A stretch of DNA of 37,291 bases. Origin: Bryobacteraceae bacterium. GTDB taxonomy: Bacteria; Acidobacteriota; Terriglobia; Bryobacterales; Bryobacteraceae. The position numbers and the translations under genes were made by a program. A model generated the notes under the pieces. The model did no database searches and was not told where the DNA came from. It saw only the letters and a program-made list of their open reading frames with translations. The stretch spans positions 1 through 37,291 of the forward strand of contig JASIAM010000284.1 in assembly GCA_030041985.1 (NCBI GenBank), given 5' to 3'. This document shows positions 9,032 to 37,291 of the stretch, one piece after another (the stretch's first letter is position 1; the number at the start of each line of letters is the position of its first letter).

Positions 9032-9037
9032 TTCGCT

Positions 9038-9451
9038 ATGAAATTCTCTACCGAGTACCTGACGTTCAATACGAAAAACCACCGCGAATATATCAATATT
9101 ACAACTCAGGTGGAATCCGTTCTTCATAGGAGCGGCATCCAGGAAGGCATGATTCTGGTCTCAGCCATGCATATCACCGCGGGTGTCTGGGTCAACGATG
9201 CCGAAGACGGACTCCTCGCCGACATCGACCAATGGCTTGAGCACCTGACGCCCTACCGCGACGACTACCGCCACCACCGCACCGGCGAAACCAACGGCGA
9301 CTCCCATCTCAAAAGCCTCCTGGTACACCACCAGGTGATTGTGCCGGTGACTAAAGGCAAGCTGGACTTCGGCCCCTGGCAACAAATCTACTACGCCGAG
9401 TTCGACGGCAAGCGCCCCAAACGGGTGATTGTCAAAGCTATGGGCGAATGA
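9038..9451 (+). CDS. YjbQ/UPF0047 family protein (secondary thiamine-phosphate synthase-like)
   Basis: The 137-residue product matches the YjbQ family along its length: the [19 protein letters not shown] block (family: HTTAG..IN), the [20 protein letters not shown] segment with His and Asp residues near the proposed active site, the [23 protein letters not shown] block and a basic end. E. coli YjbQ has a weak thiamine-phosphate synthase activity, and its main role is unsettled. No thiamine gene is near, so the context does not support that pathway. It is a cytoplasmic trimer in known structures. The gene appears to be leaderless and stands alone. It ends 122 bases before the promoter of the GWxTD gene, and I see nothing in that gap. 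Confidence 0.9.
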
Positions 9452-9573
9452 GCCACCTGGGGCGCCGGCGGCCGCCTTCCATTCCCTGGCTCCCGGCCCC
9501 CTGCCCTTGTTTCCCAGCCCCAAGCTGCGCCGTGGCCGCCGGAACACCACACCTGTGCGCGCCTTTCACGGGA

Positions 9574-9603
9574 TTGACCGCTCGAAATCTCAGGATCTAC
9601 AAT
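9574..9603 (+). promoter_or_regulatory. sigma-70-like promoter of the GWxTD gene (TTGACC-18-TACAAT)
   Basis: TTGACC (9574-9579) and TACAAT (9598-9603) are separated by 18 bases. Transcription should begin near 9610. This rules out the in-frame ATG at 9606 as the start and supports ATG 9639, which has GGAGCGGTGGG upstream as a binding site. Confidence 0.6.
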
Positions 9604-9638
9604 AGATGCAGCAATTTTTTACTGGAGCGGTGGGTCGA

Positions 9639-23500: not shown

Positions 23501-26500
23501 CCACAAATGCCGTCTACACCGTCACGCTGAGCAATCCGACTGCAAGTGCGGTTACCTACAATCTCTCGATCGGCGGGATTCCCGCGTCATGGACGACTAC
23601 TAACCTTATATACAATTACCTTTCGCAGCTTCCGGCGGCCGCCAGTGTCCCCGCGGGCGGGACTGTGAGTGTTCCGTTCACCGTCATTCCGGATCTGTGG
23701 GCCACGGCAGGCACTTATAATTTCCAGGTGATCGCCAGCGCCACAGGTTTGTATGGCACCGTGCAGGGGACACTGATTTACACGAATCAGTATCCGGGCA
23801 GCGCGCCATCGGGCCCCGGCACACCGATCACCACTATCGACACATCGGACGTGCTGATTCAAGTGACACCATCGAGCGCCAGCGCGGGATCGGGCGACAC
23901 CGCCGTGTTTCAGGCACAAGTTACCAACGTTGGCCCGCTCGCGGACACGTTCAATATCATAGGAGAGACGAACTTCAGCGGCAACAGCCAGCTCCCGTCA
24001 CTCTTCGGAGGAGTGGGCACGGCCCCCACGATCGCTCCGGGCCAGACGTTTACGGCCACGCTTTCGGTAAGCGTGCCGGCGAACACGGCTCCGCAGGCCG
24101 TTCCGATTTTGGTGACGGCCTATGGTGAGAACCACGGCGGCACCGGATCGGCTCCGGCTACTGTCAACGTCATTGCCAACGGAGTGACCGTTACGGCGGT
24201 AAACTTTAACACCATATTCAGCCCGAACACTACTGCACAGGTGACAGTCACCAATACGGGTAGCGTCAGCGACACGTTCGCGCTCACGCTGGGCGCTCCT
24301 GGCGCCCAAGTGTCAGCATTACAGACGCAATCGGTAACGCTAGCCGCCGGCGCCAGCCAAAATGTGAATATTACCGTCGGCAATCCGGCGTTCGCACCGG
24401 CCGGCCTGGTGCCGCTCAACGTAACGGCCACCTCGCAAGGGAACTCGGCCGCCACGAATACTCTGGCTTTAAGCATCAACCTGCTGCCCGCTTACGGCGT
24501 GACAGCCGTTTTCCAGCCTTCTTCGCAGAGCGCCGACGCGGTCTTCCCCCTGATTGTGCAGAACACCGGGTCAGTACAAGATAGCTATTCCGCCCAGATC
24601 ACTGCCACCACGGGAGGTATTCAGGCCAACCTGGTGAACCTGGACGGGACGCCAACTCAGATGATTTCGGCGTTCTATTTGCCCTCCCAAGCCAAAGGCC
24701 AACTCTATCTGAATGTCACGGGCACGGCGCCGGCTTTGGTGACCGTAAAAATCACTTCGCTGACGGACTCGTCTATCATCGCCACGGCGACGGCGCGGCT
24801 GTGCAATGGCTGCGTGCAAGCGCCGGTAGCCAACGCGGGCGTGAATCAGACTGTGCCAGCGGGCACACCAGTGACCCTGAATGGCAGCGGAAGTTCCGAT
24901 CCCAACACTCCGGCGCTGCCGCTCACTTATAGCTGGACGCTGGTAAGCGCACCGGCCGGGAGCCACGTGACAACCGACAGTATCGCCAATGCCAGCAATG
25001 CCAACGCCTCCTTCACGCCCGATGCGGCCGGCGCGTATGTCTTCCAGTTGACGGTGAACAATGGCACATTCAGCACCAGCGCCAATGTTACGATCACCGC
25101 AACAGGCAGTGGTGTAGTAACTTTGGCGCCGACGGCCGTTACGCTGACCAGCAGCCTGGACCCAGCCGCGGCCGGCCAGGCTGTGATTTTTACGGCGGTG
25201 GTAACGTCCACCCAGAGCGGCACACCGACCGGCGCCATCCAGTTCCTGGATGGCGCTACCGTCTTAGGCACAGTGGCCCTTGCCAATGCCCGCGCAGCCT
25301 TCAGCACCGCCACACTCCCAGTGGGATCTAACACCATCACCGCGAGGTACAGCGGCGATACCACCTTCCAGGCTTCGCAGGCGAGTCTCACGGAAGTGGT
25401 GAATGCGGCGGTGGGCCTCACTATGAAACTTACCAGCAGCGCCAACCCTTCGACTTTCGGCCAAGCGGTAACATTTACAGCAGCGTTTACCGCGAGCGGC
25501 GGAAATCCGACGGGGACGGTACAGTTCTTCGACAGCACTACTCTGCTCGGTACGGCCTCAGTAGTGAATCTGCAAGCTGTGTACAGTACGGCAACACTGA
25601 CCGCGGGTTCGCATGCAATTGTAGCCAAGTACAGCGGCGACAGCACATACTCGCCCGCGCAGGCCAGTCTCGGGCAAGTGATCAGTCCGCTTGCCAGCAC
25701 AGTAACGGTTACTGCTTCCGCCTTGTCTGTGGCCCTCGGCCAGGCGGTTGTGTTTACAGCCCAGGTCGGACCAGCGCCTCCCATGGGATTCCCGGCGCAG
25801 ACCGGACAGGTATCGTTCGAGGATAATGGCGGGCCGCTGGGCAGCGCGCCATTGGCATCCGGCAGCGCTACTTTGAGTGTCACTACCCTGACTCTGGGCA
25901 CGCACACGATCACTGCAGTTTATACCGGAGACTCTACCTGGGGAGCTTCTCACGCAACGGTTACAGTCACAGTGACACCGCCTCAACTGCAACTGACTAA
26001 CGCCGCGGCCAACCTGTCTATGAGTTTTGCGCCCGATGAGATCGTCAGCATGTTCAACGTGATCCAATTGACGGGAAACACCGCAGCCACACTGCCGCTG
26101 GGTACCACTCTCGACAACACCACGGTGACTGTGAAAGATAGCGCCAGCGGCACGCGCGCGGCCCTTCTCTATGGTGTGTTTGCGTCGAGCGAACAGGTGA
26201 ATTTCGTCATGCCCTCGGGAACGGCTCCCGGCGCGGCCACGGTAAGCGATAGCATCGGAGGGACATCCGGCCAGTCTCTCCAGATTACGATCGCCAACGT
26301 GGCCCCCGGCATCTTTACGGCAGGCATGAACGGCCAGGGAGTTTTTGCCGGACAGATCGTGTATGTGCATGCGGATGGCTCGCACACCCTCACTGACTCG
26401 TTCACGGTCTCCGGCAACACGTATACTACGACGCCGGTCAGCTTCGCCACGGCGACAGATCAAGTCTATCTGCAACTGTATGGGACAGGCTTCCGGCACG

Positions 26501-26688
26501 CGAACACGGTCACGGTAACAGTGAATGGCACAACTGTGCAATCTGTCTTCGCGCCACAGGGAACCGATCCCGGGTTGGATCAGTTGAACTTGCTGTTACC
26601 GGACAGCCTGGCAGGAGCCGGGACAGTCAACATCGTAGTCACAGCAGACGGCCAGGTGGCGAACACGGTAACGACGGTAATTCAATAA
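17554..26688 (+). CDS. giant secreted multi-domain protein (transglutaminase-like, Ig-like repeats, LVIVD propeller, PKD, Solibacter-type C-terminus)
   Basis: This 3044-residue protein has a signal peptide (to about residue 32). An Ala/Pro/Thr linker follows, then a transglutaminase-like core (about 158-255; IFAFVRDQVGFDIYSG and GNALDRASLLIALLTAAGYTAQYV) with no Cys at the usual nucleophile place. A hydrophobic, helical stretch lies near 790-865. Next come several Ig-like/CARDB-like segments with repeating VPAGxT..V strands, a beta-propeller of LVIVD-type repeats (about 1500-1865; SVVDVSNPASPTVL, TVFDISDPLSPQLL), more Ig-like domains, and a PKD-like domain (about 2423-2520; VANAGVNQTVPAGTPVTLNGSGSSDP). 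Three Ig-like repeats with LTSS.(DP/NPS)..GQAVxFTA cores span about 2522-2808. The TIGR03437-type Solibacter domain closes it (about 2810-3044). It is probably an extracellular adhesin or matrix protein. Low Lys/Cys and high Thr/Ser/Ala are typical. GTG 17554 has a strong ribosome binding site. Confidence 0.85.
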   Translation: MFHNRAGWFRDFTCFSAFLVLFAALTESGYGQQADSGLPAGIQASSAPTKSDVATGRPASAARPAVTPPNAGTSFRRGQGVAGSFILPALTSPAAPGATPRALVQPAVSSPLQGVTPQGVTAPSATTSIPAWAAALSNKLPNQVTPGASGSALQKSQKKPVRMLLSPGAITTIANPADGADPYIVAEATALHNDPNQIFAFVRDQVGFDIYSGSLRGARGTLWTMAGNALDRASLLIALLTAAGYTAQYVQGALTSTQATQILQQIFGNTPLGVLGCLPSGTTPANPVANATFLTTLEQHFWVQYAQGSGPFQNADPSFSTSVLGQVYGTPATTFTTIPDNLKNTVYVELDAETYTQASALLGGNGFSSTPVLTQTFATAELVGRPLALGHLVSTNTTSSLFSATTNTYTPYLTYGNTTDPSQDETITGTQYQEFLTSFPLGSVVLTGVFLQFQVTDPSGNSETYSKTLFDRVGYAARQNGGSTQVTVPASATAAFTPVDITTIDVSASLQNPSQVQSFGASATAIQSQLAPLVTQTAALSSPPTPAQNQALQQEQNIAELSTMVTGRLIATAFANLSDQTDVATASANYVKAYFNSPRLITVTNKVTTAQSSATITEELDLLKDDKYSIPLPGQNSTTATVAYNFLRGVVESVDESEMSQGLAQNYTPQNGTTLLAAGSVADIFSAAQTQGIGTILLTPSDISTVSTLPISADAQARIVTALESNLLVFAPLAMVSLNAINTYGWYQIDPTTGLTESVAEDGAHQGIVDYTAVILNGDEATLVALSPAFQFDLGFVYGIVQSLFIALPVLFLKATLGKGAAFTNLLLNAFSELSSIIAAISATSPFFALGILAAFAVAETWLSVDPQAPAILTAIPVPSPGTPGGTAGVSAQLSLDPLLTLPFSGAQLPLVYRAQIQNTGPQADTFNLTPASVPSGFSVTTSLPSVTIPAGATAIIGVCVEPSNTSVAAGTPETFQLNVASASNSSITSSAMETFDVPSIQGLSLSWSPSQASATPGSVVDATLTVQAVGNTAVTAPLTLSAPSSFTVTGVPSSVSLTAGQSQNIPVTITISSGAVVGAQNAVEVSSTLNQTNTTGTILPSSTLQLTVTSQQALAAASAAPAAIAAGRSDIATSLSGLSGAITNLVAGCTAATLAAFQNYANNLLSQVEYSSNSGFFTSAFPNGEYTLSQEITNTTCSNYAQTITDLNTAITAIGNLFESPAAFPFQLGLGPSTVVAQPNSTTTVKIDLQNESQVTETYNLSVSGIPTGLGGLNTSTVTLAPGQSVPAGNSSDPAVIISQTGNTLQAFSYTVTAAPTNLTTDSQSTIGTVSLRPNVIAIQDVLAQPGSVTAGESVDVVTHIANVVNQATAIQTSLKVLNSSNTQVASAGPVSATLSVTNLLTAVDFGQVTIPGGTPNGDYTLSVTLTDSNGNALSGGTGTGYLLVGPLISATLTVSPQTVPAGSNSTTLQNTLTVTSPSNFPTSLTLVGSVATASTAETVALLQVSGMQTLAYVCDENEVSVVDVSNPASPTVLTTALSTYISNAANIHCSIQQRSGTNYLVIFADTNSTVNGNNPGFLVFDLSTPTNPTLVNAIPFPKRFVGDPVVYLGDTGFLYTQVYFSCCAQTGDAFTGAGGDVVSVDLTNIAMGGLTSLPVLGTLSGENSSTYGGPSPIAGLALYSSQLLYAGSTTDIGNNFNGSGALDVVNISNPNDLSLIAQALVSSNGIQEVINPLIQGNLLVARADTTGTVHEVNVETDNQEYITVFDISDPLSPQLLSATPTNNFCCNGYGGAVLGPNLFLFGGTQNADGMSGLPVLELVNTTNPASPVITNIGPLTAATNSFIVQGNYLYAPTASGLSIYQVPGNLLSSQVTGYSVSLQTSNASPVTYNSASFNVTPTNITHGSGFDTLTWNNVTSTNAITWTSTVTGLQPSQMATVDQNGTVSFTSTLGNGTVDLAPVEVDGAQLLNLSPQSQTVQYAGSTNAVYTVTLSNPTASAVTYNLSIGGIPASWTTTNLIYNYLSQLPAAASVPAGGTVSVPFTVIPDLWATAGTYNFQVIASATGLYGTVQGTLIYTNQYPGSAPSGPGTPITTIDTSDVLIQVTPSSASAGSGDTAVFQAQVTNVGPLADTFNIIGETNFSGNSQLPSLFGGVGTAPTIAPGQTFTATLSVSVPANTAPQAVPILVTAYGENHGGTGSAPATVNVIANGVTVTAVNFNTIFSPNTTAQVTVTNTGSVSDTFALTLGAPGAQVSALQTQSVTLAAGASQNVNITVGNPAFAPAGLVPLNVTATSQGNSAATNTLALSINLLPAYGVTAVFQPSSQSADAVFPLIVQNTGSVQDSYSAQITATTGGIQANLVNLDGTPTQMISAFYLPSQAKGQLYLNVTGTAPALVTVKITSLTDSSIIATATARLCNGCVQAPVANAGVNQTVPAGTPVTLNGSGSSDPNTPALPLTYSWTLVSAPAGSHVTTDSIANASNANASFTPDAAGAYVFQLTVNNGTFSTSANVTITATGSGVVTLAPTAVTLTSSLDPAAAGQAVIFTAVVTSTQSGTPTGAIQFLDGATVLGTVALANARAAFSTATLPVGSNTITARYSGDTTFQASQASLTEVVNAAVGLTMKLTSSANPSTFGQAVTFTAAFTASGGNPTGTVQFFDSTTLLGTASVVNLQAVYSTATLTAGSHAIVAKYSGDSTYSPAQASLGQVISPLASTVTVTASALSVALGQAVVFTAQVGPAPPMGFPAQTGQVSFEDNGGPLGSAPLASGSATLSVTTLTLGTHTITAVYTGDSTWGASHATVTVTVTPPQLQLTNAAANLSMSFAPDEIVSMFNVIQLTGNTAATLPLGTTLDNTTVTVKDSASGTRAALLYGVFASSEQVNFVMPSGTAPGAATVSDSIGGTSGQSLQITIANVAPGIFTAGMNGQGVFAGQIVYVHADGSHTLTDSFTVSGNTYTTTPVSFATATDQVYLQLYGTGFRHANTVTVTVNGTTVQSVFAPQGTDPGLDQLNLLLPDSLAGAGTVNIVVTADGQVANTVTTVIQ

Positions 26689-26785: not shown

Positions 26786-28513
26786 TCACAACAGCTCGAC
26801 TTCGATGCTTTTGCTCTGCGGATCGAGGTGGGCAATCCGAAAGCTGCGAACTTGGCCCGCCCGCGCCGGCTCCTGTCTTGCCGGGCTGCCGGACCCTGCG
26901 CCGCCGCCCTTCCATTTAGCCTGGAGCATCGAAGACAAAGAGGAAAGGTCTGTTCTTTTTTCCTCAGGCGCGCCGGCTTGTGGCCCGGCCTCCGCGGGAA
27001 GGCGGCAGGAAGCTTCGATTCCCTCACCCAGTTCCACGCGGGCCTTTCCGTTGGACACGTGAGTCATGCGCCCGCTCACTACATCGCCAGGGTTGTGTTC
27101 GGCGATGTACTCATCGAGGCTGGTGGGCACGAGCTGCTTCATGCCTAGCCGAAGACGCCGCTTTTCGGTGTCCAGTTCAAGCACCTGAGCCTTGACCACC
27201 TGGCCAAGCTTGAGCGCCTCCTGCGGGTGATTGATACGCTTCTCCGCGCTGATGTCGCCAACGTGAATCATGCCCTCAAGGCCTTCGGCTAGCTGGACGA
27301 ACGCTCCAAACTTGGTGATGCTGGTGATGGGCCCTTCCACCACGGAATTGACGGGAAATTTCCGTGGAGCCTCCGCCCAAGGGTCGCCCAGAGCCTGTTT
27401 CAAACCGAGAGAAATGCGGCGCTCTGTCTGATTGACGCCCAAAACAACCACCTCGACGAGCTCGCCGGGCTTGAGCACATCGGAAGGCTTGCGTACCTTC
27501 TTGGACCACGATAGCTCGGACAGATGAATCAGGCCCTCGACGCCCTTTTCCAGCTCTACGAAAGCGCCGAAATCGGTGAGGCGGGTGACCGTGCCGGAGA
27601 CCCGTTCTCCGGTTTTGTATTTCTCGCCCACCTGCTCCCACGGATGGGGCTGCAGTTGTTTCATGCCGATCGAGATGCGGTGCTTGGCGGCATCGACCTT
27701 CAACACCTTGGCTTCGATCTGCTGGCCGATGCTAAGCACATCCGCAGGCTTGTTAATACGCCCCCACGAAATATCGGCCACATGCAGCAGGGCGTCCACG
27801 CCGCCGATGTCGACAAATGCGCCATAGTCAGTAAGCGTGCGCACGGCGCCTTCGACCTGCTCGCCTTCCTGAATCTGCGAGTAGCGATGCTCTTTGGCGG
27901 CGCGCTCTTCCTCTTCGAGGACAGCGCGGCGATCCACGACCACGTCTTCATCGGCGACATCCAGCTTGATGATGCGGCAGCGAATTTCCTGGCCGACGAG
28001 CTTTTCCATTTCCGCGGCGTCCTTGGCTCCGCTGCGCGACGCGGGCATGAAGGCGCGCACGCCGACATCTACGCTGACACCGCCTTTCACCACCGCGCTC
28101 ACCACACCCGCAATAGCGGCTTTATCGGAGAAAGCTCTTTCGAGCGCCGTCCAATCTTTGGGCCGCTCGACTTTCAGGCGGGACAACTCGTAGTAGCCTT
28201 CCGGATGACGGCCCTTGATGGAGACGGGCAAACGGTCGCCGGCTTTAACCGGTTCGCCCGCTGCCTGAAAATCGGCGAGAGGAAGCATGCCTTCCATCTT
28301 GTAACCGATGTCGACAAACACGGAGTCGCCCGATATGGCGATCACGGTTCCTTCGAGAGGACCGGCGTCTGGTGAATGGGCGCGGGCTGGATGGGCGTGT
28401 GACTGCTCGAATTGCGAAAGAATGTCACCGAAAGATTCGGCGGAATCATTGGGGGAAACTGGCGGCGCGGAACCCGTCTCCGGGTCGTGGGCCAGCGAAC
28501 TTGGCTTGGGCAT
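26786..28513 (-). CDS. rpsA: 30S ribosomal protein S1
   Basis: S1 binds mRNA and brings it to the 30S subunit. The 575-residue product has a 50-residue Pro/Ser-rich head followed by six S1/OB domains, at about 50-115, 135-200, 218-286, 303-373, 390-460 and 478-575. Domains 3-5 have the clearest S1 signature (LTDYGAFVDIGGVDALLHVADIS, LTDFGAFVELEKGVEGLIHLSELSW, ITKFGAFVQLAEGLEGMIHVGDIS). The sixth is split by a ~45-residue low-complexity insert before its last strand. ATG 28513 was chosen because the frame upstream to 28621 has no S1 similarity. It diverges from the HEAT-repeat gene with 117 bases between starts. The 97-base gap after the gene, toward the giant gene, shows no clear terminator. 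Confidence 0.92.
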   Translation of the reverse strand: MPKPSSLAHDPETGSAPPVSPNDSAESFGDILSQFEQSHAHPARAHSPDAGPLEGTVIAISGDSVFVDIGYKMEGMLPLADFQAAGEPVKAGDRLPVSIKGRHPEGYYELSRLKVERPKDWTALERAFSDKAAIAGVVSAVVKGGVSVDVGVRAFMPASRSGAKDAAEMEKLVGQEIRCRIIKLDVADEDVVVDRRAVLEEEERAAKEHRYSQIQEGEQVEGAVRTLTDYGAFVDIGGVDALLHVADISWGRINKPADVLSIGQQIEAKVLKVDAAKHRISIGMKQLQPHPWEQVGEKYKTGERVSGTVTRLTDFGAFVELEKGVEGLIHLSELSWSKKVRKPSDVLKPGELVEVVVLGVNQTERRISLGLKQALGDPWAEAPRKFPVNSVVEGPITSITKFGAFVQLAEGLEGMIHVGDISAEKRINHPQEALKLGQVVKAQVLELDTEKRRLRLGMKQLVPTSLDEYIAEHNPGDVVSGRMTHVSNGKARVELGEGIEASCRLPAEAGPQAGAPEEKRTDLSSLSSMLQAKWKGGGAGSGSPARQEPARAGQVRSFRIAHLDPQSKSIEVELL

Positions 28514-28630
28514 GAGACTGGTATCTTCATTGTGGCACAACACCGCCTTCGCCTGCCGATTCGACGCGGCTCCATCGCCGGTTCGTGAAAAACGGTAGCT
28601 CTTCAGCCTCTGCTGCGTCAAAATCTACGT

Positions 28631-29920
28631 ATGCATCTCTTCCGAGCGACTCCTCCCTGCCACCGCTGGTGGCTGGCGGCTCTGGCCGCGATTTCCGTTC
28701 TTTCGGCGCAGGACGTGCGTCCCAAAGACGTCCGCGAAATTGCCAAGGCCGGGTCCAACGCCATACCGAGACTTCAGGAATTATTGAAAAATCCGGATCT
28801 CGATGTGCGCATCGAGGTGGTCAAACAGATCACGGACATTGGCACGGAGCGCAGTCTCGATCCGCTGATTCTGGCGACGCAGGACAACGACCCGGAGGTA
28901 CAGATCCGAGCCACGGACGGCCTGGTGAACTTCTACCTTCCCGGTTACGTGAAAATGGGGTTTGGATCTAGCCTTTCCCGCGTAGGATCGAGTATTAAAG
29001 GGAAGTTCACCGATACCAACAACCAGGTGATCGACCCGTACATCATGGTGCGCCCGGACGTGATCGGGGCCCTGGGGAAGTTGGCCAGTTCGAGCGCCAA
29101 CATGAGTGTGCGGGCCAATGCCGCCCGCGCCATCGGAATCCTGCGCGGCCGGGCGGCGATTCCCGATCTGCTGGCAGCGATTCGCACCAAGGACACTGAT
29201 GTCATTTACGAATCACTGGTTGCCTTGCAAAAAATTCGGGACGAATCCTCGGCTACGCAAATCGACTTCCTGCTGCATGACCTGAACCCTAAAGTGCAGA
29301 CGGCCGCGCTCGAAACGGTGGGCCTGCTGCAGAACAAAGCGGCGCTGCCGGAGGCGGTGGACGTGCTGAATCGTTCTCGCGACGCCCGGGTGCGGCGCGC
29401 CGCGCTCACCGCCATTGCCATGCTGCCCGACGACAGCAGCCGTGCGCTCTACGAGCGCTACCTGCAGGATAAAGACGACAAAATGCGCGCGGCGGCGGCG
29501 GAAGGCTTCGCGCGCCTGAAAAACCCGGCCGACCAAAGCATGCTGGAAAGAGCCTGGCAGGATGAGGGCAAAACCCCGGTGCGGCTGGCACTGGCGTTTG
29601 CGTTGGTGTCGCTAGGCAATACGCAGATGAGCGAGTTCAGCCCCTTGCAGTATCTGATTAACACGCTGAACTCCGCGGCTTATCACGACGTGGCGTTCGC
29701 GTACCTGGTGGAAACGGGGCGCAACCAACCAGTGCGCCAGGCCCTGTATCCATCTCTTACCAACGGCACCAAGGACGAAAAAATTAATGTCGCGCGGGTG
29801 CTGGCTCGCAGCGGCGATAAAGACAGTATTCCCTACCTGCAAAAACTGAGCACCGATACGGATGGAGATGTGGCTATGGAAGGGGTCCGGGCGCTGCGCA
29901 ATCTGCAGGCCCGGTTGTAA
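28631..29920 (+). CDS. secreted HEAT-repeat protein
   Basis: The 429-residue product has an N-terminal hydrophobic segment (WWLAALAAISVLSAQD), probably a signal peptide cleaved near residue 27. The rest is built almost entirely of HEAT/PBS-lyase-type helical repeats: IPRLQELLKNPDLDVRIEVVKQI, LDPLILATQDNDPEVQIRATDGL, IPDLLAAIRTKDTDVIYESLVAL and further copies to the final PYLQKLSTDTDGDVAMEGVRALRNL. Such solenoids hold partner proteins, so the role is probably a scaffold in the periplasm. A 50-residue non-repeat insert lies near 105-155 (GFGSSLSRVGSSIKGKF). The start follows CAAAAT by six bases and has no ribosome binding site, so it may be leaderless. No enzyme domain is seen. Confidence 0.8.
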   Translation: MHLFRATPPCHRWWLAALAAISVLSAQDVRPKDVREIAKAGSNAIPRLQELLKNPDLDVRIEVVKQITDIGTERSLDPLILATQDNDPEVQIRATDGLVNFYLPGYVKMGFGSSLSRVGSSIKGKFTDTNNQVIDPYIMVRPDVIGALGKLASSSANMSVRANAARAIGILRGRAAIPDLLAAIRTKDTDVIYESLVALQKIRDESSATQIDFLLHDLNPKVQTAALETVGLLQNKAALPEAVDVLNRSRDARVRRAALTAIAMLPDDSSRALYERYLQDKDDKMRAAAAEGFARLKNPADQSMLERAWQDEGKTPVRLALAFALVSLGNTQMSEFSPLQYLINTLNSAAYHDVAFAYLVETGRNQPVRQALYPSLTNGTKDEKINVARVLARSGDKDSIPYLQKLSTDTDGDVAMEGVRALRNLQARL

Positions 29921-29938
29921 CCGAACAGCCGAGGTAGA

Positions 29939-30148
29939 CTACTTCGCCTTCTTCTGCTTCTGTTGTCCGACACGCACTTTGAAGTGCAATTGCTTGGATT
30001 CCTGAAACGCCTTGTGATCGTGGCGCGCGACGGCGTCGGCGAGGTACTGGTCGACGTTGGTCTCTCGGGGCAGGACCGCCATGATTGTGAAGCTTTGGTT
30101 GCAAGTGGGGCAGAAGGGGCGGAAACGCTTTACGTTAGGAATGGCCAT
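29939..30148 (-). CDS. small CxxC protein, 69 residues
   Basis: The 69-residue product starts MAIPNVKRFRPFCPTCNQSF, with one CPTC pair at residues 13-16 that could bind zinc together with other residues or another copy. A region VDQYLADAVARHDHKAFQES and a Lys/Gln-rich tail follow. I do not recognise a family. The frame is convincing because of its length, composition and a TACAAT nine bases before the ATG (30158-30163 on the minus strand), giving a leader of two or three bases. It may be separate from the regulator gene that ends 26 bases upstream. The single Cys pair is compatible with a half zinc ribbon. It converges with the HEAT gene. Confidence 0.6.
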   Translation of the reverse strand: MAIPNVKRFRPFCPTCNQSFTIMAVLPRETNVDQYLADAVARHDHKAFQESKQLHFKVRVGQQKQKKAK

Positions 30149-30174
30149 AACGATACGATTGTAGCAAAGCGGCG

Positions 30175-30735
30175 TTAGGCCAATCTTGGCAGGTGCTCGG
30201 GGGCTACGAGAAGGCGAATGGAGCGCGCCATGCCGGGCGTCCGTTCAATCAGGCCATTGCGCTCCAGGGTCTTGATCATTTCGTGCACTGAGGGCGGAGA
30301 AACCTGAAAATATTGCTGCAAATCGGATTCGGCCGGCGCCACGCGGTGGATTTTTCCGTAGTGGTAAATGTAGGCGAGGTACTGGCCCTGTTTCGTGGTG
30401 AATTTCGGTGGGCGGAACGGGTCCAGCTTGGGAGCGGGACGTATCGAAACCTCGAAGGCGTCTTCGCCGAAACTGTCGAAAACGCGCACCTCGAGAAGGC
30501 AAAGCGTGCCGCCGAGGACAGCGCGGACGGGTTTCTTCGCGGCGGCATAAAGGTTCGTACGTAACTCCTTGGCATCTGCGCCGGAGCTCCGGTATTGCGC
30601 GATGCCGATTCCTATGCCTGCCTTTTGGGCGAAGACCCATTCGTGGCTGTCTTTATACTCCACCTGAAGCGCGTCAGCGCCGAGTGAGAAGGCGTGCTCG
30701 CACAGGCCTTCGAGCAACGTGGCGGGCCTGCCCAT
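30175..30735 (-). CDS. winged-helix (LexA-DNA-binding-like) regulator with a novel N-terminal domain
   Basis: From ATG 30735 the product has about 186 residues; the frame stays open to 30846 and would add 37 residues. The C-terminal ~75 residues are a winged helix like the LexA/MarR DNA-binding fold: TTKQGQYLAYIYHYGKIHR, PAESDLQQYFQVSPPSVHEMIKTLERNGLIERTPGMAR, then a wing and IRLLVAP. The N-terminal ~100 residues (LLEGLCEHAFSLGADALQVEYKDSHEWV...) form an alpha/beta domain that I do not recognise, perhaps a sensor. It has no SOS-type protease dyad of LexA. ATG 30735 was chosen because the upstream part crosses a palindrome and promoter-like TATAGT/TATTAT sequences. It lies near the edge of the mobile region and could be native. 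Confidence 0.65.
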   Translation of the reverse strand: MGRPATLLEGLCEHAFSLGADALQVEYKDSHEWVFAQKAGIGIGIAQYRSSGADAKELRTNLYAAAKKPVRAVLGGTLCLLEVRVFDSFGEDAFEVSIRPAPKLDPFRPPKFTTKQGQYLAYIYHYGKIHRVAPAESDLQQYFQVSPPSVHEMIKTLERNGLIERTPGMARSIRLLVAPEHLPRLA

Positions 30736-30752
30736 GCTCAAAACGGGACTAT

Positions 30753-30766
30753 ACGGCTGAAGCCGT
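30753..30766. repeat. palindrome ACGGCT-GA-AGCCGT (REP-like)
   Basis: A perfect 6-bp stem with a two-base loop sits just upstream of the winged-helix gene start. Its CACGGCTTCAGCCGTG-type core has the look of an interspersed palindrome; it might also be an operator for the adjacent regulator. Confidence 0.4.
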
Positions 30767-30868
30767 GTCCATAATAGAGTAAGTGTCTTAGCATCAATAG
30801 CTTGTGATCGAATCTCTCGATGGTCGACTCCAAAAACATTGTCCATTTATTCGTGTGTGGCCGAGGCA

Positions 30869-31258
30869 ATGAAGACGCACCGGAGTAAACCCGGCATTGA
30901 TATGCTTGCCGCCACCATTCCCTCCGATTTCGCTATATTGTCGAATGTGGGGCTAGAAATCCAGCTTCAGGATGAATGTGGCGGTCGAATCCAGAGTGTT
31001 GCAGACCCCAAGAACCTGCTTACCGATCTTTTGCCTCCGAACGAGAAACGCGACGCTTATCCGATGCTGGCAGGAATTGACCCGTATGGCGATACGGTTT
31101 TCAATCCACTTCAGATTCCACGTTTCCTGTCCGAGTGGGTGGACGTTGTTTCAAAAGCACGAACGGAGGAAGACCGGGAGCTGCTGTCGAAGATCGAGAG
31201 GTTAGCCCGTCGTTGTGCCGATGAGGTCCATACCTATCTGAAGTTCATCGGCGACTGA
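30869..31258 (+). CDS. hypothetical small acidic protein, 129 residues (immunity-protein-like character)
   Basis: A cytoplasmic-looking product of about 129 residues from ATG 30869; ATG 30902, eleven codons later, is equally possible. The clearest part is MLAGIDPYGDTVFNPLQIPRFLSEWVDV, then a charged helix ending in ERLARRCADEVHTYLKFIGD. Proteins with an IDPYGDTVFN-type centre and a C-terminal HxYLxFIGD helix turn up as solitary genes in many bacteria and have the size and acidity of immunity proteins. That comparison is from memory and the function is not known. Composition is less GC-rich than the genes to its left, and it lies beside the recombinase module, which suggests transfer. It has no toxin partner in view. 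Confidence 0.6.
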   Translation: MKTHRSKPGIDMLAATIPSDFAILSNVGLEIQLQDECGGRIQSVADPKNLLTDLLPPNEKRDAYPMLAGIDPYGDTVFNPLQIPRFLSEWVDVVSKARTEEDRELLSKIERLARRCADEVHTYLKFIGD

Positions 31259-31313
31259 CCCGTTTGGTGGCGTCAACTATATCTACCCCTAAACCTGATA
31301 CGATCGAAACCGA

Positions 31314-31775
31314 ATGGTTGGGATTCGGCGAAGCGTGGTCGTTGGAGCGATCATTCTTGCCCTCCTGCTGATCCCGATTCCGTACCGCGCGTGCCCCACA
31401 TGGGATGTCTGGGTGGTTGATGATAGCGGTCAGCCAGTACGTGACGTGACGGTTCGATTGGTTTATCAGAACTATTCGGCTGAATCGCGATCTCACGAAG
31501 ACGATCGGATCACCAACGAACGCGGCCACGCGATGTTCCCGCGCCAGGAATCGTCAGCTTCGGTATTGCGGCGCTGTTACTACACGGCTTTGTCTGCGAC
31601 CGCGGGCGTGCATGGCAGTTTTGGGCGGCATGCGTGGGTATTCGCGTTTGGCAAAGGTCTGGAGGGGAACGCAACGTCGGGGCAGATTGTGACCGACTGG
31701 ACGGGAAGCCCGGACCATATGGAATCACGGATCGTAGCGAAGGCAGCGAATCTGTTGTCACCCGGAAAACACTGA
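31314..31775 (+). CDS. membrane-anchored or secreted small protein with transthyretin-like domain
   Basis: The 153-residue product opens with a basic residue pair and a hydrophobic segment (VVVGAIILALLLIPIP, about residues 8-23), which is a signal peptide or single anchor. Then WDVWVVDDSGQPVRDVTVRLVYQNY is a carboxypeptidase-regulatory/transthyretin-like strand pattern, and DDRITNERGHAMFPRQ completes the usual knob. The tail contains two Cys in all (ACPTW, RRCYY) that could form a disulphide. I cannot assign a function. The neighbour at 30869 is on the same strand, 55 bases upstream. It converges on the small recombinase-associated gene with an 17-base gap, so it may be element cargo or the chromosomal flank. 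Confidence 0.6.
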   Translation: MVGIRRSVVVGAIILALLLIPIPYRACPTWDVWVVDDSGQPVRDVTVRLVYQNYSAESRSHEDDRITNERGHAMFPRQESSASVLRRCYYTALSATAGVHGSFGRHAWVFAFGKGLEGNATSGQIVTDWTGSPDHMESRIVAKAANLLSPGKH

Positions 31776-31792
31776 CTCGCCCCAAAAACTAT

Positions 31793-32242
31793 TCATAGCG
31801 GACCGGTGCGGCGCCGCTTGGAATTCTCGCCGGCATGGGGAATCGAGCGATCAGGCATGGCCAACGGCCTCCAGAGTTCAACAGGGTCAATTCCTAGCCG
31901 CTGAGCGTTTCCTTCCGCCAAACAGATTCGAGCGACCAGGCCTTCGCAGCGACGTTGTAGGTCGGCGATTTCCTGATCGCGGTCGTGCATTGCGTCCGCC
32001 TGAGACCGCCGCGCCGTTTCCCGTGGCGACAGTCTGCCAGCGTGCGCTTGCTGCTTGGCCGCCCTAGAGACTTCGATATCCAGACCGTACTTTTTCAAGG
32101 TCTTGCGATCAAAGCCGGTCTGTTTCGCAACTGCCAAAACGTTCAGCGGCGCTTCTTCCGGTGACCTGCTCACCGCGGCGGCGAGATAATCTCTAACAGC
32201 CTTGCGGACGTCGTCCTCTACCGGTGGGCGCGGCACGCTCAA
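31793..32242 (-). CDS. small TnpC-like HTH/coiled-coil protein of the recombinase module
   Basis: The 149-residue product starts at TTG 32242, overlapping the recombinase stop as TTGA; GTG 32236 is another choice. An N-terminal helical part (VRKAVRDYLAAAV) precedes what looks like a helix-turn-helix (LNVLAVAKQTGFDRKTLKKYG, about residues 33-53). A charged helix likely to coil follows (QADAMHDRDQEIADLQRRCEGLVARI), then a Pro-rich tail with WRPLAMPDRSIPHAG. Tn554 TnpC is a similar-sized accessory protein that affects orientation and frequency of transposition; equivalence is inferred from position and shape, not similarity. Translational coupling to the third recombinase suggests that it acts with the recombinases, probably on DNA. 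Confidence 0.6.
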   Translation of the reverse strand: MSVPRPPVEDDVRKAVRDYLAAAVSRSPEEAPLNVLAVAKQTGFDRKTLKKYGLDIEVSRAAKQQAHAGRLSPRETARRSQADAMHDRDQEIADLQRRCEGLVARICLAEGNAQRLGIDPVELWRPLAMPDRSIPHAGENSKRRRTGPL

Positions 32243-34200
32243 TCCTTCACGGGCGCCTCGAAACGGGACGCCTTTCCAGCGTGGGGGCGCACGATGGTTG
32301 ACCCGCCGCCGGAGTCAGCGGCCAGGATTCTATCAACGCCGGCCAAGGTTGCTCTTGCGTCGGCAATCCAGCTTTCAGAAAGGTCAACCCCGCCACGGGG
32401 CTTCTGCGCCTCCGCGTGTTGCAGTATCTGCTGTGTCCGAGTTCGTAGCTGGACCAGGTTCTGACGATGCACATGGTTCGTGGTATCGAACAGATAGTCA
32501 TCGCAGTCCTTGACGCAGTTCAGCATCTTCGGGCATGGAGACACTTTGAAGTCATGCACGCAAAGGCCGAGCGGTGTCACATGGACGGCCTGTAGTTGGC
32601 CCTCCAAGAAAACGTCGCGAATGTCATCATGCAGATTAAAGTACATCTCGGCGACGCGTCCCTTCGTGCGGCCGGACTCAAGGGCCGCTCTCAGCGTGGC
32701 GACCCGCTCCGCGGGAGTGAGATGCTTGTAGGCCTCCAAATCGCCGATATGCTCGCGCCCCTGCCATCGCGCGATCACTTCGTCGGGAACGCCGGCAATG
32801 GCGGCCTTTGTTGTGACCCAGTGACGAAACTGATGCGTGTGCATTTTGAAGAAGCTCCCGCCGTTGTCTACAAGGCCGAAACGTTCGAATGCTGATGTGA
32901 CAATCGTTTTTCCTCTCTCCGTTCGTCCTCCCAGAAAATCGTTGACCGTCTGCTCCGTCAACGGCTCGACGAGGAATCGGCTCATCTGACGTTGCTTATG
33001 CTTGAAGTTGCGGAAAACAACGAATAGGCTCTCCGAGAGCTTCTGTTTCGTGCCGTCTCGCCGGTCGACTATCCATAGTTCGGTCACGCGGAGGCTGAAC
33101 AGGTGGGCGGCTACATCCGACGCTCGATATTCGTGGTGTTTGGAAGCACCGTGCCGCACAACCTTTCGGGGTAGCTTCGACGGCGAAATCTGGTTGACGC
33201 TCTCGATCGTCATACCGAGCAAACTTGCGACCTCTTCGCAGCGAAGCATGTCATTCCGGTGACGCCCTGGAAGCCGTACGCGGTCTGGCGTCGTTTCCAG
33301 GACCCTGGCCTGAGCACGCGCCGACCCGGTGATGGCGCGAGCTTCCTTGATAGCGCCGGTCGCCAGTTCGGCTTGTTTCGGTGTCATCCAACGAACCGCC
33401 AATTGCTTTTGGCCGTCCCGTGACTTCTCTTTGTGGTACCGGATACCCCATCGCTTCTTTACACCAGCGCCCTCCGAGCAGATACAGTCCAGAGGCAGAG
33501 TCAACGTCTCGCCGATCCGAAGGCCCGTCGCCATCATCACTGCCAGAATGCAGGCAATCAGCCGGTCCGGCGGTTCCTTAGCGTGCCTGGCGTAGATGTC
33601 GGCGACCGCGCAGATCGCTTCGTCCGAGGGCATCCTCTTCATTCGTTCCAGTTGCCCGTCGAGCGTGTACCGCTCCGAATCGTCCGTTCTGGGCGTGGTA
33701 AACGCAACCTCCATGGGACGAACGATGCCCCCACCCCGAACCGCCGCCAACGCCCGCATCATGTACTGGAGCTGGGTGCATCTTTTGTAACAGGTCGACT
33801 GGCTCCAGTGAATCAGCATCACCTGCTCAGTCCCCAGGAGATCGTCTTCGGTCAGTTGGCGCCAGTCGAATGCGTCTGCGTCACCGAATCGCGGTCGGAT
33901 GGCCTCCCACAATAAGCGGGCGATGTCCACTCTCAGGATCATCGTGGCGGACGCGCCTTTGTTGAGCAGTATGTATGCCTTCACGACATTCGAAAAGCGC
34001 GTCGGCAGCGGATCCACAATGGAACCGTGGAGCGTGAAGTATATCCACGAGTTTGTCTTTTTATGCTGAGAGGTGCGGAGGTGCCGGATGTCCCAGCATG
34101 GCGCTTCGAAGGGGAAGACTGCATTCGGAAATATGGTCTTGAAAAGCGCCCGGCCCTGCCGTACGTAGGCAGCTTCTGCCGCAGGCACCGGCAGCGTCAT
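32239..34200 (-). CDS. tyrosine recombinase (third of trio) with embedded excisionase-like HTH
   Basis: From ATG 34200 the product has 653 residues; the frame is open much further, but ATG 34200 overlaps the preceding stop as ATGA. Catalytic residues present: R228 in MATGLRIGE, H456 and R459 in HTHQFRHWVTT, H484 in WQGREHIG and nucleophile Y491 in LEAYKHLTP. Between the first Arg and the HxxR box sits an extra segment of about 60 residues (about 317-370) that reads as an excisionase/MerR-type HTH: MLRCEEVASLLGMTIESVNQI, a KLPRKVVR wing and YRASDVAAHL. The C-terminal region has four Cys (547, 556, 562, 566) in a zinc-like GLC...SPCP...NCVKDC cluster. It probably breaks and joins DNA together with its two partners. 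Confidence 0.85.
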   Translation of the reverse strand: MTLPVPAAEAAYVRQGRALFKTIFPNAVFPFEAPCWDIRHLRTSQHKKTNSWIYFTLHGSIVDPLPTRFSNVVKAYILLNKGASATMILRVDIARLLWEAIRPRFGDADAFDWRQLTEDDLLGTEQVMLIHWSQSTCYKRCTQLQYMMRALAAVRGGGIVRPMEVAFTTPRTDDSERYTLDGQLERMKRMPSDEAICAVADIYARHAKEPPDRLIACILAVMMATGLRIGETLTLPLDCICSEGAGVKKRWGIRYHKEKSRDGQKQLAVRWMTPKQAELATGAIKEARAITGSARAQARVLETTPDRVRLPGRHRNDMLRCEEVASLLGMTIESVNQISPSKLPRKVVRHGASKHHEYRASDVAAHLFSLRVTELWIVDRRDGTKQKLSESLFVVFRNFKHKQRQMSRFLVEPLTEQTVNDFLGGRTERGKTIVTSAFERFGLVDNGGSFFKMHTHQFRHWVTTKAAIAGVPDEVIARWQGREHIGDLEAYKHLTPAERVATLRAALESGRTKGRVAEMYFNLHDDIRDVFLEGQLQAVHVTPLGLCVHDFKVSPCPKMLNCVKDCDDYLFDTTNHVHRQNLVQLRTRTQQILQHAEAQKPRGGVDLSESWIADARATLAGVDRILAADSGGGSTIVRPHAGKASRFEAPVKD

Positions 34201-35768
34201 GCTGTGTGCCCCTGTTCCTGATGAATCTGGGCCAGCAACTGGCGAATGGCGGACATGACATCCTCCAACTGCATGGGAATGCGGGAGTCGCTGGTGGCCT
34301 TCATCTCCTCTGAGATCTTCTCCAACGCGGTGAGCACCTCGGCGTGAGGCCCGGCGCGGAAGGCGGCAAAGAACTCGCAAGGATAGCAGGTCAGCGGGGG
34401 TGCTAGCCGGCATAGCCCATCTTTGCGAGCATCGCGTCCGCACATTCCAATCCCGCCGACGTTCATTGGTGCTGTTGGCAGTTGAATGATGTCGCCGGGG
34501 ATTACTTTCGGGTGAACCTTCGGGAAAGCTCGCGGAACCGTGGAATCCACGATTTTGCCGCGAAAGCGCTGGAGCAACGGATCGAACATCTGATCGAATC
34601 GAGCTCCCAGTTGATCGACGACATAGGATGCGGCTTCGATATAGACATTTACATTCTGCAAATCGGTGTGGTCGAGAACTTCGGCGATCCGCTCCCGCGA
34701 TGCGCCTTCCCTTGCCATCTCTGTAGCCAGTGTCGAGCGAAATCGCCGAGGGGTGAGGTGGAGCGGAGATCGCGTTCGCGGTGACATCAAGCGAGCTGCG
34801 GTGGCGAAGCGTACCATGGCCTGGTTGATACCTTCTTCGGGAGCGTCGGGTGACAGCCAATGAAAGAGTGGATCGGCCGGTTCACCCCGCCGCAGTTCAG
34901 CCAGGAGCTGCCCAAGCTGGTCGCTGATGGGTCTCGTCTTCGTTTCCCTGAACTCCCGGCGCTTCTTCACCCGAGGTGCCCGAATCTGATACTTGGTAAT
35001 CGGCCTCGAGCGGCCGCCGTCAACGAGGTTTGCAGAGAATACTCTGAGGTCGTTGTTCCTCATGCGTGCCGTCGACTGCGGATTGAGGCCGAGTTCGAAA
35101 TGGAGCATGACCACCGCGCGGTCGGATGGTGTCCCGGCGCCAGCCGCGATTGCGCGTGCGACGATTCGCTGTTCATCTTGATCCAGCGGTCCTTTCAGCG
35201 GGTCGCGGAACCGGACAGCAGCGCCTTTGATGTTGCCTTGCGCACGAATCGCCTTCAGGGCAAGGGCAAGATCGGGATCAAACTCCGGCAGTTGCGCACC
35301 GAAGGCTCCCCAGGTGTACATCTCCCTGAGCCGGGCAAAGTCGTTCCCCTTGCTGGCCGTCTTGAGCCCATGTTCCAGGAACGCACGGAAGACATCTTCC
35401 GTGACGAGCTGCCAATCAAACGCCGCGGGTCGGCCGACCCGCATAGCGGCGACATACCAACGAAGGAAACGGCGGAACATTACAGAGTCGTTCCAAACGG
35501 TCATTCCCTTTGAAAATGTGAGCCGGTGCGCGATGTACAGCTTTATAATCTGCATGGCGCGTTCCGCTAGAAGCATCGGAGCAGAGGCCGCCGCGATGAC
35601 CGGCCAGTTGATATGGAGCAGACGGCCGCCGTCATCAGAAGCCCGGAACCGCCAGACGTCACCCGTTGTGTCAACGATCTGCCTGTCTTTCGTGATGACC
35701 TGTGGGCGAACCGCCGGTACGAGAGGCCACGATGTCGGCAGCCGGTCCCGCAGTGCTGGAGCCGTCAT
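34197..35768 (-). CDS. tyrosine recombinase (second of trio), two catalytic residues missing
   Basis: The 523-residue product has the SAM-like core-binding domain (about 60-180) and a catalytic domain (about 190-390), but the first catalytic Arg is replaced: FELGLNPQS puts N229 where GLRxxE is expected. The HxxR box reads TPRRFRSTLAT, so R341 replaces His while R344 stays. H367 in LDHTDL and the nucleophile Y376 in NVNVYIEAA are kept. A C-terminal cluster C443, C453, C461, C464 (GMCG...GLCR...TCYPCEFF) looks like a zinc knuckle, similar in kind to the third recombinase. It may bind DNA or pair with the others more than cut. Start and stop overlap both neighbours as ATGA, so coupling is tight. 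Confidence 0.85.
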   Translation of the reverse strand: MTAPALRDRLPTSWPLVPAVRPQVITKDRQIVDTTGDVWRFRASDDGGRLLHINWPVIAAASAPMLLAERAMQIIKLYIAHRLTFSKGMTVWNDSVMFRRFLRWYVAAMRVGRPAAFDWQLVTEDVFRAFLEHGLKTASKGNDFARLREMYTWGAFGAQLPEFDPDLALALKAIRAQGNIKGAAVRFRDPLKGPLDQDEQRIVARAIAAGAGTPSDRAVVMLHFELGLNPQSTARMRNNDLRVFSANLVDGGRSRPITKYQIRAPRVKKRREFRETKTRPISDQLGQLLAELRRGEPADPLFHWLSPDAPEEGINQAMVRFATAARLMSPRTRSPLHLTPRRFRSTLATEMAREGASRERIAEVLDHTDLQNVNVYIEAASYVVDQLGARFDQMFDPLLQRFRGKIVDSTVPRAFPKVHPKVIPGDIIQLPTAPMNVGGIGMCGRDARKDGLCRLAPPLTCYPCEFFAAFRAGPHAEVLTALEKISEEMKATSDSRIPMQLEDVMSAIRQLLAQIHQEQGHTA

Positions 35769-37027
35769 CGCTGCCCACCCGCTGTGTTGTAGAGGCGCTC
35801 GTTCCGTTCACGGAGAAAGACGCTCGCCCGGCGGGCCATCGCATTCTGGGTGTAGTGGAGGGGCATGGCGGACCTCGGCTTCCAACCGCCCAATGTCCGG
35901 AGCAGGGCCAGCGTTTCCTCCTCCCGATGCTGAGTGAGCAACTCTTCGGCAAGAGCCTCGGCCCACGTGTGGCGAAAGCTGTGCCACGAAAGGTCGTCAA
36001 TCTGAGTGCTCCTGGCGATCACGCCGACGACCTCGTTTGCCGCAGTAATCGACAGCGCCTGCGCTGCGGTTGTGACAAACAGATACGGGCTCCCACCGGC
36101 CGCCCGCCCGCTTGGGGCACGGTTGGTGAGATATGCGCGGAGACCGGCCCGCACCTCGCCCGACAGGTCGAGTACTCTCTCGACAGTCTTTACGCCTGGG
36201 CGGTGGCGGCGAGCATCCGCGATGTCGTGCGCACGCCGCCGGATCTTCAGCCCCGGCGAATCCGGCCGGGGCAGGTCATCCAGCCGAAGCTTGAGCAACT
36301 CTCCGCGACGAAGCCCACTGTGGATCGCGATGGCGTACATGAGCCAGTTGCGAAGCCGTGTCTCAATCCTGAACGGATTAGCGGATGCAAACTGAAGAGG
36401 CACAACCAGACCGCCATCGCCTTTACGGCGAGGACCGATCAGTCCGTCAACTCGTGTCACTTCCTCTTCAGTCAGGGGCCGGATCCGCTGGGAACCACCG
36501 CTCTGTCGAGTGATTGCGTGGAAAGCCTCGTCAAGGCAAGCCCTCCGGTGGCGGATCTCATCGAATGAGACCATCTGCGGGCGGCGGCCCTGACTCGTCA
36601 GATCGACGGCCCACTTCAGGAAATCGCGAATGACGCTGGCATGCCGGGCCACCGTATTACTGCCTGAGATCGTCGCCCGATTGATGTCGACGACGTGGCC
36701 GCCTACCCTCAGAAACGCGATCAGGTCCTCGATCTGCATGCCGGTGATGGGCTGTCCGTCCTCGAGGAGATCGTCTAGCTCCCCTTCCAACGCATCGCTC
36801 GCCCATGAATACAGCAGCCCGAGCGAGCGCAGGTCGTTGGCCAGGGTCGAGGGCATCGACCGCCACCGTCGACGGCGGACCACCCAGCGCGTCGCTACAC
36901 GAACCGGAATCCAACTGCAGAAATCCACCAGCGTCGGGAGGACCTCGCCGGTTTCCAGCGTCAATGGGAGAACTCGAAATCGGCGGTGGGAACACGCGTT
37001 CTCGTTCGGTCTTTGCGGCGACAGCAT
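35765..37027 (-). CDS. tyrosine recombinase (first of trio), complete active site
   Basis: The product has 420 residues from ATG 37027; a TTG at 37051 would add eight. A core-binding domain (about 55-150) precedes the catalytic domain (about 180-400). All catalytic residues are visible: R240 in HSGLRRGELL, K280 in PGVKTVERVL, H349 and R352 in LSWHSFRHTW, W382 in LGGWKPRS and nucleophile Y392 in LHYTQNA. It is the lead gene of the coupled trio and the one expected to be catalytically competent by itself. Its promoter is probably in the 235-base gap to its right, which also has inverted repeats. It has no Cys cluster at its end, unlike its two partners. Confidence 0.88.
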   Translation of the reverse strand: MLSPQRPNENACSHRRFRVLPLTLETGEVLPTLVDFCSWIPVRVATRWVVRRRRWRSMPSTLANDLRSLGLLYSWASDALEGELDDLLEDGQPITGMQIEDLIAFLRVGGHVVDINRATISGSNTVARHASVIRDFLKWAVDLTSQGRRPQMVSFDEIRHRRACLDEAFHAITRQSGGSQRIRPLTEEEVTRVDGLIGPRRKGDGGLVVPLQFASANPFRIETRLRNWLMYAIAIHSGLRRGELLKLRLDDLPRPDSPGLKIRRRAHDIADARRHRPGVKTVERVLDLSGEVRAGLRAYLTNRAPSGRAAGGSPYLFVTTAAQALSITAANEVVGVIARSTQIDDLSWHSFRHTWAEALAEELLTQHREEETLALLRTLGGWKPRSAMPLHYTQNAMARRASVFLRERNERLYNTAGGQR

Positions 37028-37096
37028 CACGTGCCCACTCTGACCAAACAAGACGACACAGAAATGTTTTGGTTAGCTACCAGGCCTCGGCGGCGC

Positions 37097-37185
37097 GCGT
37101 TTCGGTGAGGCGCCTTCCACTCCGCCCTAAACGCGCCGCCCTACGGGCGTCGCAGGGCTCCGTTCCAGGCGCCCCACCGAAACGC
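37097..37185. repeat. 19-bp imperfect inverted repeat upstream of the recombinase trio
   Basis: GCGTTTCGGTGAGGCGCCT (37097-37115) is repeated in inverse orientation at 37167-37185 with a single mismatch, around a 51-base centre. It lies about 70 bases upstream of the trio's lead gene start. It could be a recombinase binding site, an element end or a regulatory hairpin. Confidence 0.6.
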
Positions 37186-37220
37186 AAGAAAAGAGCTTGA
37201 ACTGGGAGAGAATGAGGAAT

Positions 37221-37249
37221 CTCTCCTCCCAAGTCCCATGAGAGGAGAG
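37221..37249. repeat. CTCTCCT / AGGAGAG inverted repeat at the right edge
   Basis: CTCTCCT (37221-37227) and AGGAGAG (37243-37249) form a 7-bp stem around a 15-base loop. The left arm can instead pair with GGGAGAG (37204-37210), so two alternative hairpins share CTCTCC. The surroundings are purine/pyrimidine-rich. Function unknown. Confidence 0.4.
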
Positions 37250-37262
37250 TCGCTACTGATAA

Positions 37263-37291
37263 ATGGACACGAAAACGAAGGCCGTACCCTA
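37263..37291 (+). CDS. possible start of a rightward gene (cut by the window end)
   Basis: An ATG at 37263 opens a frame MDTKTKAVP that runs off the window, nine codons seen. AGGAGAGT lies 13 bases before it, rather far for a ribosome binding site. Too little is visible to name it or to be sure that it is a gene. Confidence 0.2.

Follow-up and report, generated by a model that had tools for sequence, protein, structure and literature searches.

A putative GInt-type integrative element at the 3' end of ssb in an acidobacterial genome

GInts are defined by the four-gene operon ginABCD, which lies at one end of the element beside a specific target site, commonly the 3' end of ssb; short imperfect direct repeats of 10-17 nt (attL and attR) form the flanks, and ginD is followed by a cargo of 2.5 kb to at least 70 kb and a short AT-rich 3' end (PMC5385486). 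In Pseudomonas, these elements excise as a circle and all four genes are essential, and the same authors noted a resemblance of GinD to TnpC and gave Bacteroidetes, Firmicutes, Verrucomicrobia and Proteobacteria as host phyla (PMC5385486). The elements have also been called the Tn6571 family (PMC10121019). Here, we analyse contig JASIAM010000284.1 of a Bryobacteraceae bacterium (assembly GCA_030041985.1), a stretch of 37,291 bases (1-37291) that is one entire contig (C261 of 355 in the source genome) and is called the window below. Its end carries an operon that, judged by its sequence, is ginABCD, and we estimate at about 0.9 the probability that it belongs to a site-specific integrative GInt element, which ginABCD would insert into and excise from the 3' end of ssb in the host genome.

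The operon consists of four overlapping minus-strand genes, running from 37051 to 31793, for three tyrosine recombinases and a small helix-turn-helix protein (lengths are those of the open reading frames, ORFs):

35765-37051, minus strand: ginA, tyrosine recombinase, 428 aa from a TTG start, or 420 aa from the ATG at 37027 that an earlier reading, made from the sequence alone (the sequence-only reading), had used
34197-35768, minus strand: ginB, tyrosine recombinase, 523 aa
32239-34200, minus strand: ginC, encoding a large tyrosine recombinase (653 aa if started at the ATG at 34200; a TTG opens a longer frame, which reaches 34860)
31793-32242, minus strand: ginD, encoding a small protein (149 aa from a TTG start) that combines a helix-turn-helix-like part and one long helix

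Reading out the gene ends confirmed the overlapping module that the sequence-only reading had described, with four-base overlaps at 35765-35768, 34197-34200 and 32239-32242; the shared bases are ATGA at the A/B and B/C junctions and TTGA at the C/D junction. It is plausible that translational coupling of genes overlapping in this manner fixes the stoichiometry of their products. The proposed composition also holds, since GinA, GinB and GinC score 40.9, 34.7 and 29.1 bits against the Pfam family Phage_integrase (PF00589, cut-off 27.1 bits) and helices in the model of GinD can be read as a helix-turn-helix.

Gene order, number, sizes and kind fit those of published GInts (PMC5385486). The window shares with them the co-directional A-B-C-D arrangement, the three tyrosine recombinases with a small helix-turn-helix-like protein and the insertion at the 3' end of ssb, and the ends proposed here would also resemble theirs in being imperfect direct repeats. 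It differs by an acidobacterial host, outside the phyla listed in PMC5385486, by having its nearest GinC kin in a quick tree in the Chloroflexota, by a proposed cargo of ~1.05 kb against a published minimum of 2.5 kb, and by a hairpin repeat between ssb and ginA. RIT elements also have three adjacent tyrosine recombinases, but they have no fourth gene, archetypal proteins of 315-410 aa and 34-bp terminal inverted repeats (PMC10214605), which do not fit the 428, 523 and 653 aa of the window with its fourth gene of 149 aa. Between 29000 and 37291, where the contig ends, the sole inverted pair that brackets the whole operon measures 17 nt (88% identity) versus 34 bp in RIT elements. Tn554 (TnpA, TnpB, TnpC) likewise combines tyrosine recombinases with a small auxiliary protein, the one likened to GinD (PMC5385486), but is set apart by its description, with two recombinases instead of three and no counterpart of Tfp/GinC (PMC10214605). 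Finally, SE elements are similar by description, their four recombination genes including one for a protein of recombinase fold and one for a small auxiliary protein; however, their order is IntA, Tfp, IntB, Srap, with the fold protein second and not third, and SE and GInt proteins form separate clusters (PMC10214605). The sequence-only reading had taken the locus for a mixed form that might be a distinct family. It was right that the module is neither RIT nor Tn554 and belongs to a family apart; this family is not new, being the named GInts with the same four genes (PMC5385486).

Sequence comparisons strongly support membership of the GInt family, because the four-gene order, leave-one-out profiles of GinA, GinB and GinC, and the identity of GinD to Chloroflexota GinD all point to it. 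The comparison set comprised 11 loci, namely 5 of 138 plasmid records with a GinC match and 6 other genomes of the phylum with a GinC match. Profiles built from 10 of these loci, with the window excluded, recovered GinA at E 4e-57, GinB at E 1.5e-72 and GinC at E 3.1e-118, and homologues of A, B and C occur in order in 10 of the 11 loci (the exception is L030). GinD is 34-41% identical to four Chloroflexota GinD proteins and 33% identical to one acidobacterial GinD at E 6e-5. The sequence-only reading had proposed looking for the same gene order in other genomes, and it was found: among 56 GinC loci fetched after a motif-based GinC scan of GTDB genomes, some of them interrupted by contig ends, 40 carry ABCD in order on one strand, 7 carry ABC, 2 carry BCD and 7 show another arrangement. 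In the Chloroflexota, orthologues stand in the order ABCD in three loci (L070-L072) and BCD in a fourth (L069), at 34-44% identity; GinA was not detected in L069. Identities are 35-44% for GinA (three loci) and for GinB and GinC (four loci), GinB alone ranging from 39 to 44%. A quick GinC tree of 58 rows, from which rows below 250 bits and L025 (the same locus as L100) were excluded, groups the window with the four Chloroflexota rows at 99% SH-aLRT.

Plasmids offer the same arrangement under uninformative annotation. On Pseudomonas aeruginosa pTROUS1, ssb is followed by genes for 428, 520, 689 and 149 aa, and on an Escherichia coli plasmid by four gin-like genes and then avs4; in both cases, the four genes are annotated merely as integrases or hypothetical proteins. 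What follows ginD varies: avs4 lies directly 3' of it in the E. coli plasmid GInt, one small gene and then a type ISP restriction-modification gene follow in the P. aeruginosa plasmid GInt, and a second small gene (133-139 aa) precedes a protein of 699-773 aa in the Acidobacteriota loci L025, L026 and L028. From its appearance by eye, we take this last protein to resemble a RecD-type helicase.

The recombinases appear to keep the expected catalytic positions in GinA and GinC, with motif positions that we assigned by eye. GinA retains the R, K, H, R, W, Y pattern; in an alignment of 11 sequences, R248, H357, R360, W390 and Y400 are invariant and K288 almost so. At the box-I arginine position of GinB, read by eye, stands an asparagine, as in 2 of 10 other GinB proteins. 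In GinC, R228, K259, H456, R459 and Y491 are invariant in alignments of 11 and of 13 rows, both including the window and with L025 and L100 representing a single locus, and in our reading these are its catalytic positions. Published accounts state that GinC is without the first arginine (PMC5385486) or without the catalytic tyrosine (PMC10214605); our alignments, as we read them, conflict with both statements. A predicted structure of GinC (pLDDT 77.3) matches Cre, Tre and XerH at E<=0.001, and a sequence search of solved structures with GinC gave no match at E<=1. For GinD, NCBIfam gave no match and no Pfam family reached its cut-off. Its AlphaFold2 model (mean pLDDT 82.0, pTM 0.45) comprises short helices at 35-42 and 46-51, which we read as a helix-turn-helix, and one long helix at 73-115; a structure search with this model returned no match at E<=0.001.

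Evidence for the left end comes from a second contig. The tail of C261 (37095-37291) is identical over 197 bp to the end of contig C136 (4225-4421) of the same genome, which holds the sole ssb match at E<=1e-20 in that genome. Because this overlap carries the ssb stop codon, ginA is placed 237 bp past that stop (261 bp when counted from its ATG) and in the same direction as ssb, and the location of the left end at the 3' end of ssb is strongly supported by the assembled sequence. The features on this side are:

37289-37291, minus strand: ssb stop codon TAG at the contig end, via the 197-bp match to C136
Continuing onto C136 (L043 4219-4227): proposed left attachment core CCCTTCTAG, via the same match
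37259-37288, minus strand: left inner arm (GGTACGGCC...CGTGTCCATTTAT in the sense of ssb), with a TGT that four other GInts also have, by eye, at equal spacing from ssb at their left ends, and with a partial inverted counterpart at 30752-30772
37097-37185, no strand assigned: strong hairpin of 89 bp between ssb and ginA, probably an inserted repeat

The same neighbourhood is common elsewhere. In 4 of 10 comparison loci, ginA is preceded by an SSB tail at a distance of 107-158 bp. Of the 42 genome loci having at least 400 bp upstream, 30 show an SSB-type tail motif (DDxPF-stop) in the 700 bp before ginA, against a background of 32 in 2102 windows of 760 bp (56 loci, both strands, true sites counted in). 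The hairpin is contained in the longer spacer that separates ssb and ginA here. A sigma-70 promoter and terminator scan of 36800-37291 found none, and an Rfam search of 28000-37291 gave three sub-threshold matches only, judged to be chance. As for the hairpin itself (L044-L048), an inner core of ~55 bases is conserved and the outer stems differ per site; several copies, often at contig ends, are present in genomes of the family and class (e.g. G002, G041 and G128), and its own-genome matches, among the matches listed, all correspond to this site.

The distribution of the element is patchy. At E<=0.001, ginC has a single match in the source genome; at E<=1e-10 the source genome alone among 151 genomes carries it, at E<=1e-5 it is found in 7 of 396 genomes of the phylum, source included, and ginA at E<=1e-12 in 2 of 101 genomes, the source and a 28% match in another genus. 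The locus is thus not fixed in all relatives; fixation is what the sequence-only reading had said would count against its proposal. A decayed copy was met in Acidobacteria bacterium isolate gp3 AA109 (L117), where the remnants of gin genes extend from 6915 to 11026, between ssb and a winged-helix gene. This contig holds ssb, pieces of GinA (77% and 82%), GinC (37-48%) and GinD (27%), and the winged-helix gene (66%), all identities being to the window, with GinB not detectable in it. Such remnants are consistent with a close relative having been inserted and lost at this site.

The right end is best placed, from sequence features, at 30738-30746, which would give an element of ~6.55 kb with a cargo of ~1.05 kb. 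The relevant features are:

30738-30746, minus strand: CCGTTTTGA (Pro-Phe-stop), the candidate right attachment core; 9-mers of this class number four in the window on both strands, and this one lies at the start of homology to the ssb-adjacent gene of G024
30752-30772, plus strand: candidate right inner arm (TACGGC...CGTGTCCAT), in inverted orientation to the left one and with a 9-base exact match
30175-30735, minus strand: winged-helix gene flanking the right end and taken as host DNA, 186 aa from the ATG at 30735
31314-31775, plus strand: cargo ORF of 153 aa, with sub-threshold Pfam matches only, the best being Big_1
30839-31258, plus strand: cargo ORF of 139 aa, without a Pfam match at E<=0.1 and with a 74% DNA match over window 30912-31283 in the family relative G024

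From ginD to this core there are 1,046 bp with the two small ORFs, below the published 2.5 kb; the AT content reaches 57% in both the last 60 and the last 100 bp inside the proposed end, versus 41% in the window. As regards the claim of the sequence-only reading that the module may move with or without cargo, the cargo part would stand, with ~1 kb, provided that the right end is correct. The winged-helix gene is the link to a host locus: in G024, it lies 19 bases after ssb at ~75% DNA identity to window 30180-30736, and in G010, which was picked for its earlier match, its C-terminal part directly follows ssb. Among ten relatives with the ssb locus read, it follows ssb in these two, and the remaining eight, including all four of the same genus, have other DNA there. 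A control was provided by the E. coli plasmid GInt, for which occupied and empty records gave attB CCGTTCTAA, attL CCGTTCTAG and attR CCGTTCTAA at the ssb end and an insert of ~13.2 kb between ssb and a DUF905 gene; by analogy, the window would have the same layout, the control bearing on this layout and not on the right site proposed here.

These ends suggest how the element may work. Three tyrosine recombinases and a small DNA-binding protein, encoded by ginABCD, would insert and excise the element at the 3' end of ssb, the four Gin proteins jointly recombining a circular form with this site and excision again yielding a circle, by analogy with Pseudomonas GInts (PMC5385486). The crossover core would be the Pro-Phe-stop codons that end SSB. 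An integrated element would leave the SSB tail intact at the left junction (CCC TTC TAG), with the other copy retained at the right one (CCG TTT TGA). Since CCCTTCTAG and CCGTTTTGA are identical at 5 of 9 bases and all four differences are synonymous, the end of ssb could be exchanged without changing the protein. We regard as evenly balanced the more specific proposal that this GInt is nearly minimal and represents a separate lineage of Acidobacteriota and Chloroflexota, in which the crossover core corresponds to the SSB-tip codons and integration swaps the ssb end with no effect on the protein.

Several observations weigh against the reading of the locus as a GInt with these ends. No single contig covers both ssb and ginA, so that their join depends on the 197-bp overlap, and GinD, too divergent, was undetected by a leave-one-out profile of 10 distant GinD proteins. 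The right core candidate emerged post hoc, after synonymous codons had been allowed, and the right end as a whole relies on this 5/9-identical 9-mer, a homology break and the 9-base arm match. The claim for a right arm is made because of that match and its position, yet 9 of 2468 overlapping 60-bp chunks contain such a match (the proposed arm accounts for two and a second copy ~80 bp further in for two more), and TACGGC alone has 33 copies in the window. Blind local alignment of the left arm favours other sites, the best near 4541 (score 29), with a score of 18 for the proposed arm; within 30152-31793, the best lies near 30377 with a score of 24, reached by 8 of 300 shuffles. A search of the window for a close copy of the ssb end gave chance-level matches only, and a comparison of the contig tail with the DNA left of ginD showed no ungapped direct repeat above shuffles. 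Lastly, no empty site was found in the same genus: its four genomes have other DNA after ssb, and the winged-helix gene was not found within ~1.5 kb.

These points leave some room for a GInt operon whose right end lies elsewhere, for instance near 30151, with the winged-helix gene as part of the cargo, which we judge unlikely. Synteny with same-genus genomes does stop at ~30151 rather than at 30735, and in G034 the winged-helix homologue lies away from ssb (no ssb in the 11 kb read). However, we read 30151 as a general synteny break and not as an empty site, because nine relatives differ in the DNA beyond it and a search of eleven relative loci with the contig tail gave nothing significant; moreover, the other Pro-Phe-stop 9-mers (18266, 23381 and 32383) are not near 30151, in contrast to the core and partial inverted arm together at 30738-30772. 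G024 speaks on both sides. Its winged-helix gene, like that of G010, directly follows ssb in a genome without a ginC match at E<=1e-10, but it stands there between ssb and an ORF with a second SSB-like tail and could once have sat inside an element. This ORF of 350 aa (L032 5617-6669), for which the winged-helix gene is the neighbour on the ssb side, has GITDDDVPF as its C-terminus, so that the ssb end is present twice and the second copy is possibly an old attachment scar.

Domestication, in which the four genes would have become an immobile recombination system fixed beside ssb, is far less credible: a minimal cargo, if the right end is correct, and a single-copy ginC would suit it, but ginC has no match at E<=1e-10 in 150 relatives, and the decayed gin genes after ssb in the gp3 contig L117 are what insertion and loss would leave. 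A novel RIT/Tn554 hybrid transposon unrelated to GInts, along the lines of the mixed form suggested by the sequence-only reading, retains a negligible probability, for although three recombinases with a small helix-turn-helix/long-helix protein recall RIT plus TnpC and the 17-nt inverted pair (30501-30517 / 37085-37101) brackets the operon, it is ruled out by gene number, sizes, ends and the GInt profiles of GinA, GinB and GinC, and the gene order and ssb target are those of GInts. The left arm of that inverted pair lies within the winged-helix gene.

Two further ORFs of the window lie before the winged-helix gene. One spans 17554-26688 on the plus strand as a single frame of 3044 aa. The other, of 69 aa (29939-30148), has no Pfam match at E<=0.1 and is kept beside a HEAT-repeat gene in relatives, with differing DNA beyond it in nine of them.

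To conclude, the GInt described here is, as far as its sequence tells, not a new mixed form but a known type, with ginABCD. The definition of GInts dates from 2017 and drew largely on Pseudomonas, and this member adds a phylum outside the list then given (PMC5385486). Within open-licence PMC papers, a full-text search for GInts in Acidobacteria gave PMC5385486 as its sole result, and no Acidobacteriota GInt is named in the first 25 of 75 titles from a broader search. The lineage of this member is divergent, the closest intact relatives met here being in the Chloroflexota, and, if its right end is correct, a cargo of ~1 kb suffices for a GInt. The survey, with an SSB tail ahead of ginA in 30 of 42 loci, and the proposed attL and attR with their synonymous differences also offer a testable reason why one target may serve very distant elements. 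If this is general, GInts would reach many phyla because they target the codons of a protein tip that almost every bacterium has to retain.

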